DNA of 64,000 nucleotides, taken from the NCBI GenBank assembly GCA_017553505.1, contig JAFZLD010000009.1, positions 1-64,000 on the forward strand, in the 5' to 3' direction. How positions within the stretch are numbered: the first letter of the stretch is position 1; each line of letters begins with the position of its first letter. Source of the DNA: Lachnospiraceae bacterium (GTDB lineage: Bacteria; Bacillota; Clostridia; Lachnospirales; Lachnospiraceae). Of this stretch, positions 51,553 through 54,711 are shown one piece after another. The notes under the pieces are model-generated. The model ran no database searches and had not been told where the DNA came from. It worked only from the letters and a program-made list of their open reading frames with translations. A program made the translations under genes and the position numbers.

Positions 51553-52485
51553 TTATTCTGTGAATAAAGGTGTTGAGTAGTATCTGTCACCGCTGTCGGG
51601 AAGTAAAACTACGATGGTCTTGCCCTTATTCTCGGGACGCTTTGCAAGCTCGATTGCTCCAAAGAGTGCTGCGCCTGATGAGATACCTACGAGGATACCT
51701 TCTTTTCTGGCAAGAAGCTTAGCGGTTGCAAAAGCATCTTCATTGGTGGCATCGAATACTTCGTCGTAGATTTTGGTGTTAAGTACGTCCGGAACGAAGC
51801 CTGCGCCGATACCCTGAATCTTGTGAGCGCCTGCGTGACCCTCTGACAATACGGGTGAATCTTTGGGTTCAAGGGCTACAACCTTAACTGCGGGGTTCTT
51901 GCTCTTAAGGTACTCGCCTGTACCGGTAACGGTACCGCCTGTGCCTACACCTGCGATGAAGATATCAACCTTACCGTCTGTGTCTTCCCAGATTTCGGGG
52001 CCGGTGGTCTCTCTGTGAATCTTGGGGTTAGCGGGGTTAACAAACTGTCCGGGGATGAAACCGCCGGGAATTTCTGCCTTAAGTTCTTCGGCCTTGGCAA
52101 TGGCACCCTTCATGCCCTTGGCGCCTTCGGTAAGTACGATTTCTGCGCCGTATGCCTTTAATATATTACGTCTCTCAACGCTCATGGTCTCGGGCATTGT
52201 AAGAATAATTCTGTAGCCCTTGGCTGCTGCGATTGATGCAAGACCGATACCGGTGTTACCGGAAGTAGGCTCGATGATTACGGAACCGGGCTTTAATGCG
52301 CCGGATTTCTCTGCATCTTCAATCATGGCCTTGGCAATTCTGTCCTTAACGCTTCCTGCGGGGTTTAAATATTCGAGCTTAACCAATACAGTTGCTTCAA
52401 GTCCCAGTTCTTTTTCAATGTTTGTAACTTCCACGAGGGGAGTCTTTCCGATGAGGTCGAGTGTTCCTTTAAAAATCTTTGACAT
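51553..52485 (-). CDS. cysK: Cysteine synthase A (O-acetylserine sulfhydrylase)
   Basis: A 310-residue PLP enzyme, the second cysteine-forming enzyme of this locus. Lysine in [14 protein letters not shown] (about 40-53) binds [20 protein letters not shown] (about 70-86) binds the substrate carboxylate; [16 protein letters not shown] (about 175-190) and the Ser in SSGAALFGA complete the phosphate site. It follows metY by 58 bp and shares its leader. AAGGAG precedes the ATG. Confidence 0.96.
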
Positions 52486-52543: not shown

Positions 52544-53824
52544 CTAAATAGCCGAGAAGCCCTTTTCCAAATCGGCTATGATATCATCGATATGCTCTGT
52601 GCCGATTGAAAGTCTGATGGTGTTCTGATTGATTCCCTGATCCTTAAGCTCAGCCTCGGAAAGCTGTGAGTGAGTGGTGGATGCGGGATGAATTACAAGG
52701 CTCTTAACATCCGCAACGTTGGCAAGAAGTGAGAAAATCTTTAAGTTGTCGATGAACTTCCAGGCCTCTTCCTTGCCGCCCTTAATATCGAATGTAAAGA
52801 TTGAAGCTCCGCCATTGGGGAAATACTTCTTGTAAAGCGCATGGTCGGGATGATCTTCAAGTGAAGGATGGTTAACCTTCTCTACCTTCGGGTGGTTCTT
52901 TAAGAACTCAACAACCTTTTTGGTGTTCTCCGCGTGTCTGTCGAGTCTTAAAGAAAGTGTCTCAACGCCCTGCAAAAGAAGGAAAGCGTTGAAAGGTGAA
53001 ATTGTAGCACCCGTATCTCTTAAGAGAATAGCTCTGATGTAAGTTACGAAAGCTGCGGGGCCTACTACATCGTAGAAAGAAACACCGTGGTAGCTGGGGT
53101 TAGGAGCTGCAATCTGGGGATATTTACCGCTCTCTTTCCAGTTAAACTTACCGCTCTCGATGATGATACCGCCGAGTGTGGTGCCGTGGCCGCCGATAAA
53201 CTTGGTAGCTGAGTGAACTACGATATCAGCTCCGTGCTCGAAAGGACGGATAAGATAAGGTGTTCCGAAGGTGTTGTCCACTACTACGGGAAGTCCGTGC
53301 TTGTGAGCTATCTCTGCGATAGCGTCAATGTCCGGAATGTCGCTGTTGGGGTTGCCGAGAGTCTCAAGGTAGATGGCTCTGGTGTTGTCCTTAATTGCGG
53401 CTTCAACCTCTGCAAGATTGTGTGCATCAACGAATGTAGTGGTAATGCCATACTGGGGAAGAGTATGTGCAAGAAGGTTGTAACTTCCGCCGTAGATTGT
53501 CTTCTGAGCTACGATGTGACCGCCGTTAGCTGCAAGTGCTTCGATTGTATATGTAATAGCTGCCGCTCCGGATGCAAGTGCAAGTGCTGCGCTGCCGCCT
53601 TCAAGTGCCGCTATTCTCTTTTCTAAAACGTCCTGTGTGGAATTGGTAAGTCTTCCGTAAATGTTACCTGCATCTGCAAGACCGAAACGATCTGCAGCGT
53701 GCTTGCTGTTATGGAATACATATGATGTTGTCTGGTAAATCGGAACCGCTCTGGAATCGGTTGCGGGGTCTGCTTCTTCCTGTCCTACGTGTAACTGTAA
53801 TGTTTCAAATCTGTAATCGCTCAT
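52544..53824 (-). CDS. metY: O-acetylhomoserine/O-acetylserine sulfhydrylase
   Basis: A 426-residue Cys/Met-metabolism PLP enzyme of the MetY type, producing homocysteine (or cysteine) from O-acetylhomoserine and sulfide. Family start FETLQLHVGQEEADPATDSRAVPIYQTTSYVF; PLP lysine in SATKFIGGHGTTLGG (about 205-219). It is the first structural gene behind the 330-bp leader holding the cysteine-rich peptide and attenuator. The MetY length (about 425-430) separates it from the shorter MetB/MetC group. Confidence 0.94.
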   Translation of the reverse strand: MSDYRFETLQLHVGQEEADPATDSRAVPIYQTTSYVFHNSKHAADRFGLADAGNIYGRLTNSTQDVLEKRIAALEGGSAALALASGAAAITYTIEALAANGGHIVAQKTIYGGSYNLLAHTLPQYGITTTFVDAHNLAEVEAAIKDNTRAIYLETLGNPNSDIPDIDAIAEIAHKHGLPVVVDNTFGTPYLIRPFEHGADIVVHSATKFIGGHGTTLGGIIIESGKFNWKESGKYPQIAAPNPSYHGVSFYDVVGPAAFVTYIRAILLRDTGATISPFNAFLLLQGVETLSLRLDRHAENTKKVVEFLKNHPKVEKVNHPSLEDHPDHALYKKYFPNGGASIFTFDIKGGKEEAWKFIDNLKIFSLLANVADVKSLVIHPASTTHSQLSEAELKDQGINQNTIRLSIGTEHIDDIIADLEKGFSAI

Positions 53825-53875
53825 GATAATGTTCTCCTGTTCTTATGTTCAATATTTCAAAGTCTGCTTGTAATT

Positions 53876-53895
53876 GAGTTTCTCTTGAGAAACTC
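53876..53895 (-). other. Perfect hairpin in the metY leader
   Basis: GAGTTTCTC/GAGAAACTC (53876-53884/53887-53895) has a 2-base gap, about 50 bp before the metY start. It may affect translation or mRNA stability. Confidence 0.5.
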
Positions 53896-53955
53896 ATGCG
53901 CCGAGCACGATTGCCTAAGCAATATATTTCCGCTCGTGCGAGTGTGAATTGTATT

Positions 53956-53986
53956 GGCTATTTTTGTGTTTTATACAAAAATAGCC
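53956..53986 (-). promoter_or_regulatory. Second anti-terminator-like hairpin of the metY leader
   Basis: A perfect 12-bp stem GGCTATTTTTGT/ACAAAAATAGCC (53956-53967/53975-53986). On the minus strand it pairs the distal arm and T tract of the attenuator terminator with sequence further downstream. It cannot coexist with the terminator. Confidence 0.7.
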
Positions 53987-54010
53987 CGAGGGCTTAATCG
54001 CTCCCGGGCT
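53982..54010 (-). terminator. Attenuator terminator of the metY-cysK leader
   Basis: On the minus strand AGCCCGGGAG (54010 to 54001) begins a stem that closes with CCCTCGGGCT (53992 to 53983). The core is six perfect pairs, AGCCCG with CGGGCT. ATTTTT follows. The same AGCCCGGGAG is exactly complementary to CTCCCGGGCT at 54100-54091 in the leader peptide coding region, giving a competing structure. Confidence 0.75.
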
Positions 54011-54030
54011 TATGGCTCAATGTGTCGGTG

Positions 54031-54165
54031 TCAACATCGTTTCGAATCAGGACGTGTGTCTACGCAAACAGACGCCCCGGCCATATTATGAGCCCGGGAG
54101 TTAAGCATTCGACAACAGCACATGACTGATACGCTATGAAGTTTGTATGAATTGTAATCGTACAT
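54031..54165 (-). CDS. Cysteine-rich leader peptide of the metY-cysK operon
   Basis: A short open frame of 44 codons too small for routine gene calling. The ATG (54165-54163) lies exactly seven bases after AGGAGA (54173-54178). It encodes MYDYNSYKLHSVSVM, then Cys-Cys-Cys-Arg at residues 16-19, Cys34 and a last Cys44 before TGA. The three consecutive Cys codons (54120-54112) end 11 bases before the first arm of a long-range hairpin. This is the design of a ribosome-controlled attenuator, with cysteinyl-tRNA as the signal. Cys-rich leader peptides that attenuate sulfur genes are known from mycobacteria; I do not know of one described for this group. Confidence 0.75.
   Translation of the reverse strand: MYDYNSYKLHSVSVMCCCRMLNSRAHNMAGASVCVDTRPDSKRC
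54076..54098 (-). promoter_or_regulatory. Local leader hairpin in the peptide coding region
   Basis: CCCGG (54098-54094) can pair with CCGGG (54080-54076), loop 13 nt. It competes with the long-range pairing of 54091-54100 with 54001-54010, giving the alternative folds needed for attenuation. Confidence 0.55.
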
Positions 54166-54217
54166 GACTGTCTCTCCTGTCCTGAAGTTTTGTGATAGAT
54201 AGAGGCTATCATAACTT

Positions 54218-54236
54218 ACCTACCATGTCAATAGGT
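54218..54236 (-). promoter_or_regulatory. Rrf2-type operator over the metY -35 box
   Basis: ACCTA-N9-TAGGT (54218-54222/54232-54236). On the minus strand a perfect TTGACA (54226-54231) lies inside it. The best -10 at 17 bp spacing (TAGCCT) is poor. The arrangement fits repression by the divergent Rrf2/CymR-like protein. Confidence 0.6.
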
Positions 54237-54259
54237 TTATAAAAAATATTTTTATTTTT

Positions 54260-54293
54260 ACCTATTTATCCTAAGGTGCAATAGGTATATAAT
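54260..54293 (+). promoter_or_regulatory. Promoter and operator of the Rrf2 gene
   Basis: A perfect TATAAT lies at 54288-54293. Inverted half-sites ACCTATT (54260-54266) and AATAGGT (54280-54286) surround the -35 area. A third AATAGGT is at 54230-54236, shared with the metY operator, which suggests autoregulation. Confidence 0.6.
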
Positions 54294-54312
54294 GTAATCG
54301 GAGGGAATAATT

Positions 54313-54711
54313 ATGATTTCTACAAGAGGACGTTACGCATTAAGAGTTATGTTAGACCTTGCGGAGCAGCATTCCGACAAGTACATTCCGCTCAAGGACA
54401 TCGCCGAGAGACAGGAAATCTCCAAGAAGTATCTTGAGATTATAGTTAAAGACATGGTAACGGGTGGTCTCATCGCCGGCACCAGCGGTAAAGGCGGCGG
54501 ATACAAGCTCACAAGGGACCCTCACGACTATACCGTAGGCGAGATTATCGAGCTTATGGAAGGTTCTCTCTCTCCTGTTGCATGCCTTGCTGATAAAGAC
54601 TACGAATGCACCAGAAAAAAAGTTTGCCAAACCCTTCCTATGTGGGAAGAATTTGACAAACTGATTCACGATTTCTTTTATCAAAAGAAACTCACCGACT
54701 TAATCAATTAG
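54313..54711 (+). CDS. Rrf2/CymR-family cysteine regulator
   Basis: A 132-residue Rrf2 protein with the winged helix start MISTRGRYALRVMLDLAEQ, the recognition-helix region KYLEIIVKDMVTGGLIAGTSGKGGGY and a wing. It lacks the IscR cluster signature of three conserved Cys; the two or three Cys near 95-107 (CLADKDYECTRKKVCQ) do resemble that spacing, so metal binding cannot be excluded. Divergent from metY-cysK, it is the likely CymR-type repressor that senses cysteine status, as CymR does with CysK in Bacillus. Strong CGGAGGG precedes the ATG. Confidence 0.85.
   Translation: MISTRGRYALRVMLDLAEQHSDKYIPLKDIAERQEISKKYLEIIVKDMVTGGLIAGTSGKGGGYKLTRDPHDYTVGEIIELMEGSLSPVACLADKDYECTRKKVCQTLPMWEEFDKLIHDFFYQKKLTDLIN

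Follow-up and report, generated by a model that had tools for sequence, protein, structure and literature searches.

The metY-cysK leader

The window, that is, the whole 64,000-nucleotide stretch of Lachnospiraceae DNA that was analysed, carries the sulfur genes metY and cysK on its minus strand. Ahead of them, between 54178 and 53977 on the same strand, lie a Shine-Dalgarno (SD) sequence, a short leader open reading frame and a terminator with a U-tract, in that order (Table 1). The leader peptide, MYDYNSYKLHSVSVMCCCRMLNSRAHNMAGASVCVDTRPDSKRC, has Cys residues at positions 16-18, 34 and 44 and ends at a stop codon at 54033-54031. An initial annotation had described an AGGAGA seven bases from the ATG, a 44-codon frame and these same cysteines, and on direct reading it is exact to the base. 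The peptide itself matched no NCBIfam family.

Table 1. Features of the metY-cysK leader and adjoining genes, in window coordinates
Feature	Position	Strand	Basis
Leader ORF, 44 codons plus TGA	54031..54165	-	Direct reading; homologous leaders
Shine-Dalgarno AGGAGA, 7 nt 5' of ATG 54165	54173..54178	-	Direct reading; SD and ATG kept in relatives
Regulatory Cys codons 16-18 (TGC TGT TGT)	54112..54120	-	Direct reading; Cys conserved in aligned leaders
Near-invariant CGA-AUG after last of Cys codons 16-18	54106..54111	-	CGA in 57/63 leaders
Antiterminator 5' arm CUCCCGGGCU, codons N22-A25	54091..54100	-	Covariation; starts 11 nt past Cys codon 18
Second antiterminator helix, 5' side AUGGC, codons M28-A29	54080..54084	-	Covariation
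CCGGG, possible local partner of 54098-54094; weakly supported as a conserved stem	54076..54080	-	Alignment test
Second antiterminator helix, 3' side GCCAU	54012..54016	-	Covariation
Switching strand AGCCCGGGAG, common to antiterminator (3' arm) and terminator (5' arm)	54001..54010	-	Direct reading, covariation
Terminator 3' arm CUCGGGCU	53983..53990	-	Covariation, folding
U-tract of intrinsic terminator	53977..53981	-	Direct reading
metY, O-acetylhomoserine/O-acetylserine sulfhydrylase, first downstream gene	52544..53824	-	TIGR01326, 638.8 bits
cysK, cysteine synthase A, second gene	51553..52485	-	TIGR01139, 457 bits
Divergent Rrf2-family regulator	54313..54711	+	TIGR00738, 119.1 bits; CymR 92.3 and IscR 93.3 below cut-offs

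Two segments of the leader, CTCCCGGGCT (54100-54091) and AGCCCGGGAG (54010-54001), are exact reverse complements, a relation already pointed out in the initial annotation and confirmed on the minus strand. The second of these strands is shared between two structures, as it pairs either with the upstream CUCCCGGGCU or with the downstream CUCGGGCU before the U-tract. In the latter pairing it forms the first arm of an intrinsic terminator hairpin, again as had been proposed, which in isolation comprises 8+2 bp with a folding energy of -18.3 kcal/mol (z -3.9) and is followed by ATTTTT. The antiterminator, folded over 100 nt, reaches -46 kcal/mol (z -6.0), and the fold of the 221-nt leader was matched or beaten by 1 of 200 shuffled sequences (z -2.9). 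A second antiterminator helix, AUGGC:GCCAU, was absent from the earlier account. A scan for consensus terminators, whose limits include a loop of 3-8 bases, listed none at the metY leader.

No Rfam 15 family was matched in the window at gathering score, nor at E<=1 over 53850-54350. The stretch 53855-53985 (131 bases) is present in a single copy in its own genome, which rules out a dispersed repeat there. By eye, the intergenic region 54200-54330, common to the divergent Rrf2-family gene, contains inverted repeats of the type ACCTATT...TAGGT. It is possible that this neighbour provides a second, protein-based layer of control.

Compensatory change in the two exclusive stems

Covariation of the stems was tested on all rows of an alignment, A3, of 68 matches, 67 of them distinct. 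Because A3 was fitted to the antiterminator structure, the test of that stem leans in its favor, and with this in mind 93.3% of cells in its 14 pairs are paired, as against at most 58.7% in slid controls, and 13 of the 14 pairs change on both sides. Two-sided cells, which count sequences and not independent events, number 50 in the antiterminator and 10.1 in shuffles. The second helix behaves similarly, with two-sided changes in all five of its pairs and 84.5% of cells paired.

The 3' strand of the terminator lies outside the model to which A3 was fitted, and here 91.0% of cells are paired, with slid controls at 65.2% or less. Two-sided cells, again counted as sequences, number 13 against 3.7 in shuffles, a value that none of 500 shuffles reached, and two of the five measures are weak, namely the number of two-sided pairs (5, equalled or exceeded in 19 of 500 shuffles) and of pair types (11, equalled or exceeded in 133 of 500). 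All three strands can be seen to change together, as leaders with CUCCCAGGC carry GCCUGGGAG in the shared strand, with CCCAGGC as the terminator 3' strand in some of them (L086, L104). The initial annotation had made its reading depend on whether the complementarity of the stems is kept in close relatives; it is kept, as antiterminator and terminator both covary, and the pattern of substitution indicates that both exclusive stems are under selection.

The same annotation had drawn a local pairing between 54098-54094 and 54080-54076 as a further competing stem. This hairpin is possible in the window, but as a third conserved, protector-like stem it finds weak support in A3, where 82.1% of cells are paired compared with 81.1% in shuffles, and two-sided cells number 8 compared with 5.2.

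Cysteine codons and their spacing from the switch

Among 172 unique leaders, where a frame shifted in a few of the rows introduces a small error into the figures on SD-ATG frame, Cys content, CGA usage and start distance, an SD and ATG lie upstream in the Cys frame in 159 and in the two alternative frames in 13 and 27. In these leaders the Cys codon nearest to CGA on its 5' side has a median position of codon 15. Codons and spacings were counted in 63 rows of A3, leaving out the weakest matches (L119, L121, L122 and L123) and one duplicate. Of the three codons that precede CGA, one or more encode Cys in 62 of these 63 leaders and two or more in 54, so that the Cys codons, on whose retention in relatives the earlier reading also depended, are indeed kept. 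Relative to CGA, no residue is as frequent as Cys at codons -1 (53/63) and -2 (48/63), and 10 of the 63 leaders are without Cys at the codon immediately before it.

A ribosome stalled on a message covers about 11 nt ahead of its A site. In 62 of the 63 leaders the codon before CGA ends 11 nt ahead of the antiterminator arm, and with this spacing a ribosome stalled at the Cys codons would be expected to leave the arm free, so that starvation should mean read-through. The concern, raised with the original description, that the direction of switching was uncertain because a ribosome stalled at the Cys codons covers neither arm is thus answered in part; folding alone leaves the OFF state unexplained.

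The Cys run is followed by CGA in 57 of 63 leaders, and then by AUG, whereas CGA accounts for only 4 of 97 Arg codons in six coding sequences of the window. No pairing partner for CGA-AUG was found by eye in A3. Pairing of CGAAUG with CAUUUG beside GCCCGGGAG found no support, as by eye in A3 the right side varies and the hexamer does not. The consensus for polymerase pausing expects an upstream G, and a reading of UGUCGAAUG as a pause site was likewise unsupported, as by eye this G is missing in MCMC-type leaders. In the fold of the window's own leader, the start region is the partner of the Cys codons; over 171 leaders the median pairing of these codons is 0.688, compared with 0.676 when the upstream sequence is shuffled, and it exceeds 0.7 in 78 leaders compared with 67 after shuffling, so that a conserved 5' stem around the Cys codons was also discarded.

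Beyond the core, the leaders remain rich in cysteine (226 of 1767 residues, compared with 24 Cys codons among 2387 codons of coding sequence), and 41 of 159 end in Cys. This richness exceeds what a single stall site requires. In a group of leaders in the genus that precede transporter genes (L031, at G000:C25 17801-17937, L032, L033 and L035), Met and Cys codons alternate or the Cys runs are longer, and these leaders may differ in sensing or tuning.

Folding as a function of ribosome position

The effect of a translating ribosome was modeled by barring the nucleotides that it covers from pairing, in 62 leaders, after dropping L115, whose stop codon lies 8 nt from the arm. A ribosome stalled before CGA leaves the shared strand paired with its upstream partner, as antiterminator, in 46 of 62 leaders (0.998 in the window); the 16 without this preference include the genus transporter leaders L031, L032, L033 and L035. 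With the ribosome on the arm, the antiterminator is favored in 3 leaders and the terminator in 59 (in the window, 0.0 and 0.888, respectively), and when everything up to the stop codon is blocked the antiterminator is favored in none of the 62. In untranslated RNA it is favored in 37 of 62, the window included. A ribosome positioned at the stop codon, with the 5' arm re-exposed, leaves the antiterminator favored in 24 of 62 leaders (0.994 in the window). These are equilibrium folds, which cannot decide between the routes by which the OFF state might be reached.

Random synonymous recoding of the leaders leaves the antiterminator favored in the stalled position in only 35 of 310 cases, and in 0 of 5 for the window. 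As few recoded leaders keep the antiterminator, the pairing does not follow from the peptide sequence alone. Among leaders selected by a DNA pattern, whose arms are complementary by construction so that the result is no evidence, the folding counts are 107/116 for the stalled position and 114/116 for the stop position with all upstream sequence blocked, with a null of 89/580.

A family of cysteine leaders

A starting peptide search of 60 genomes gave hits in 32 at the very loose threshold of E<=10, mostly by chance. Reading 40 loci on both strands identified 16 leaders of the form M-C-C-(C)-R-M-x-x-S-R/Q-A..M/V-A-G, together with close variants. Two covariance models were used in wider searches, R1, built from 12 leaders, and R2, built from 99 sequences that include pattern-selected rows. 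R1 at E<=0.1 found 55 matches in 43 of 299 sampled genomes of the family, two of them in the window's own genome. With R2 at E<=0.001, the genus had matches in 14 of 18 genomes (6 of 6 of good quality), the order in 19 of 295, the class in 13 of 391 and the phylum in 5 of 398; the samples at these four levels overlap one another and contain the own genome. Some genomes hold up to four copies (G276 in the family sample, G551 in the order sample).

The DNA pattern TGTCGAATG-N5-CTCCCRGRC-N58..88-GYCYGGGAG matched at least 116 stretches of public species genomes, with about 0.01 matches expected by chance (our own estimate, assuming equal base frequencies); a scan of viral contigs with the same pattern returned 0 matches. 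The Cys-codon frame is open through the core in 116 of the 116 matches listed, which is weak evidence alone, as the stretch is short. Record titles, for 80 of the at least 116 matches, include Lachnospiraceae, Saccharofermentans and Ruminococcaceae, and among the matches listed are Anaerovibrio lipolyticus DSM 3074, a member of the Negativicutes, and one Eggerthellaceae bin; many of these records are metagenome bins, and single odd titles may be binning errors. From this distribution, the leader at metY-cysK is to be regarded as one member of a large homologous family.

To classify the genes behind the element, the first ORF that reached 90 aa was compared with ten references by BLAST, and representatives were given Pfam names. 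Behind the 55 family matches the first ORF is MetY in 22, a fused solute-binding protein (SBP) lipoprotein in 10, a cystathionine synthase/lyase-like enzyme in 6, a GST-like protein in 3, CysK in 2, a MetN-like ATPase in 2, and a second MetY-like enzyme, NlpA or a permease in 1 each, with 6 others and 1 locus without an ORF. Cys/Met enzymes and related transporters make up 45 of these 55; in L113 and L114 one other gene precedes them, which leaves 43 of 55 with such a gene in first place. The 116 pattern matches listed, some of which end close to the element, give a similar picture: MetY in 59, SBP in 22, NlpA in 13, permease in 5, a MetY-like enzyme and an M20 peptidase in 2 each, CysK, MetN and GST in 1 each, others in 4 and none in 6. 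The substrates of the transporters would be related to Cys or Met.

The attenuator had been described as a device of metY-cysK, and this is too narrow, as the family stands before many sulfur genes. Within the own genome, the second copy (L031) precedes ORFs that read as an SBP, an ATPase and a permease. Within single genomes, unrelated genes follow the same type of leader, which points to copying or movement of the element itself from one gene to another. Compared with the MetY of the window, the MetY encoded downstream of the element is 80% identical in both Anaerovibrio (L127) and the Eggerthellaceae bin (L189), and 92% identical in Lachnospiraceae AC2029 (L171); these identities would fit joint transfer of operon and attenuator. 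In the congener L003, the stretch from terminator to metY (53855-53985) is near-identical by eye and the leader far more diverged, a pattern that may reflect recombination at the switch.

Several individual loci have neighbors of other kinds. Two leaders, L027 in the genus and L034, precede what by eye is a thiS-like gene, which in L027 is followed by a ThiF-like gene; the antiterminator arm has a one-base shift relative to the frame, and these genes would link the family to sulfur transfer. A GST-like gene follows the attenuator in L084, L102, L105 and L180 (PF13410 in L180), and in L102 it is followed in turn by a lipoprotein-like ORF and a permease. The lipoproteins of L202 and L031 combine, by eye, a family-3 solute-binding domain with an NlpA/MetQ-like stretch, the first domain being confirmed in L202. 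An unexpected neighbor is found at L194, where the cysteine leader precedes a LANC_like protein (PF05147).

A model for the switch and its alternatives

Taken together, the locus is very probably a ribosome-mediated transcription attenuator that reads the supply of cysteinyl-tRNA, with starvation leading to read-through, and the family as a whole is real and conserved, and probably functions as a cysteine attenuator, judging from comparison of its sequences. The anatomy, conservation, covariation, spacing and neighboring genes described above are features of the sequences; from them we infer the stalling of the ribosome, the direction of the switch and the occupancy of the arm in the OFF state, as follows. 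A ribosome would start at the SD-ATG and meet the Cys codons about 15 codons in. Where charged tRNA-Cys is short, it would stall at these codons with its leading edge just 5' of the arm CUCCCGGGC, which would stay free to capture GCCCGGGAG, aided by AUGGC:GCCAU. The terminator would be prevented, and polymerase would continue into metY-cysK. Where cysteine is plentiful, ribosomes would cover the arm, GCCCGGGAG would pair downstream and transcription would stop at the U-tract. Because the antiterminator is still favored in 24 of 62 leaders with a ribosome at the stop codon, the OFF state would need something further, which could be trailing ribosomes that hold the arm, a steric or kinetic block such as one exerted by a ribosome on the stop codon, timing, or close coupling.

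The polarity of this model could be the reverse, with a stall at the Cys codons causing termination and plentiful cysteine causing read-through. The re-exposed arm just mentioned would fit such a scheme, the direction being predicted here from sequence and folding, but the stalled position favors the antiterminator (46/62), a ribosome on the arm favors the terminator (59/62), and turning on the synthesis and uptake of cysteine when it is plentiful would make little metabolic sense; we consider reversal very unlikely. Somewhat less remote, although still unlikely, is that the attenuator depends on the ribosome and responds to a signal other than cysteinyl-tRNA alone, such as methionyl-tRNA, Trp codons, or arrest at CGA-AUG brought about by the nascent peptide or by slow codons. 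Cys is the commonest residue at the two codons before CGA (53/63 and 48/63), the part after the core is Cys-rich as well (226/1767), and the neighboring genes are mostly Cys/Met genes, all of which argue for cysteine; on the other hand, Met occupies codon -3 in 31 of 63 leaders and codon -2 in 12, some pattern-selected leaders show, by eye, one Cys only, with Trp or Gly next to it, and CGA-AUG is near-invariant in spite of the rarity of CGA (4/97 Arg codons).

Less probable even than reversed polarity is that the RNA acts as a riboswitch or in the manner of a T-box and that its short ORF plays no part: Rfam covariance models gave 0 matches to a T-box or known riboswitch in the searches described above, and start, SD, Cys codons and frame are all conserved, features that weigh against this reading despite the strength of the conserved RNA structure and the presence of T-boxes elsewhere in the own genome (8 matches, 5 over cut-off). 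T-boxes and the cysteine attenuator thus coexist in one genome. Short ORFs and GC-rich hairpins are common, so that a chance ORF over an ordinary terminator might be imagined, but the arrangement recurs with compensatory change and with SD and ATG in the Cys frame (159/172), and the probability of this explanation, already contradicted by the comparative data, is negligible.

The cysteinyl-tRNA attenuator would apparently work only if a ribosome follows RNA polymerase closely, and it therefore offers a natural test of transcription-translation coupling in Clostridia. In the parts of the literature consulted, transcription in B. subtilis is reported to outrun its ribosomes (PMC7858274), and runaway transcription, if true in this host, would spoil such an attenuator. 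A wider picture can be drawn, which we offer tentatively: that many gut and rumen Clostridia and some Negativicutes possess a cysteine regulon of several operons under one gene-hopping attenuator family, probably moved between lineages with the operons, that ribosomes stay close behind RNA polymerase in these hosts, and that CGA-AUG is an added timing element. If true, ribosomes would follow RNA polymerase closely in these Firmicutes, contrary to the runaway transcription reported for B. subtilis.

Comparison with known systems

According to the portions consulted of a 2005 survey, T-boxes control the majority of aminoacyl-tRNA synthetase genes in Firmicutes, and classical attenuation controls none of them (PMC1262725). 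Amino-acid leader-peptide attenuators that the cited accounts describe in the phylum are those for histidine, together with a phenylalanine attenuator proposed before aroF in Acholeplasma (PMC2965389, PMC9413887, PMC8632094). A literature search of open-licence papers, as far as their accounts were available, found no report of a cysteine leader-peptide attenuator in Clostridia. A cysteine attenuator common to many genera, present in multiple copies in some genomes and without an Rfam 15 match would define a candidate sulfur regulon that could be annotated at once. Its interest lies in the host group, the breadth and the implications for coupling, more than in a new principle.

On its sequence, the locus has the features of a leader-peptide attenuator that can be assessed in this way, namely its own SD-led short ORF, clustered Cys codons and mutually exclusive stems. 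In the trp and his attenuators of enterobacteria, the stalled ribosome masks a protector segment. Here, unlike in those systems, the alignment shows no clearly conserved protector stem, and the reading frame itself takes in the antiterminator arm, just past the stall site. What would be common to both is the selection of antiterminator over terminator by a stalled ribosome, in line with a general account of leader attenuators (PMC9413887, as far as consulted).

The histidine leader-peptide attenuators of Firmicutes, described for his operons (PMC2965389, PMC9413887) and in 17 genomes in the latter, share with the present family the combination of leader peptide, antiterminator and terminator, as well as the phylum; the cited descriptions differ from it in the amino acid, which here is cysteine, and in the genes controlled, which here are many different sulfur genes.

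Two systems described elsewhere also involve cysteine. Mycobacterial polycysteine leaders resemble the present ones in that a Cys-rich short ORF precedes sulfur genes, and for the mycobacterial leaders a response to cysteine by way of ribosome speed is reported (Canestrari 2020 as cited; PMC1262725). In the accounts consulted, these are leaderless ORFs with Cys runs near the stop codon that act by translational attenuation, without a conserved terminator, unlike the SD-led ORF, the Cys codons upstream of an antiterminator arm and the intrinsic terminator read here. The other is the uORFC-8-2 motif, described as lying upstream of cysS in Rhodobacterales only, with a uORF whose tandem Cys codons usually occupy positions 14-15, a first stem that contains these codons and an intrinsic terminator that follows, for which ribosome-mediated attenuation was predicted (PMC8632094). 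In both cases, tandem Cys codons are followed by an intrinsic terminator, and the last Cys before CGA in the present family has its median at codon 15. So far as the published description extends, the two differ in that the Cys codons here stand 11 nt before the antiterminator arm with no conserved stem around them, and in that the family precedes metY, transporter and other genes in hosts that are mainly Clostridia.
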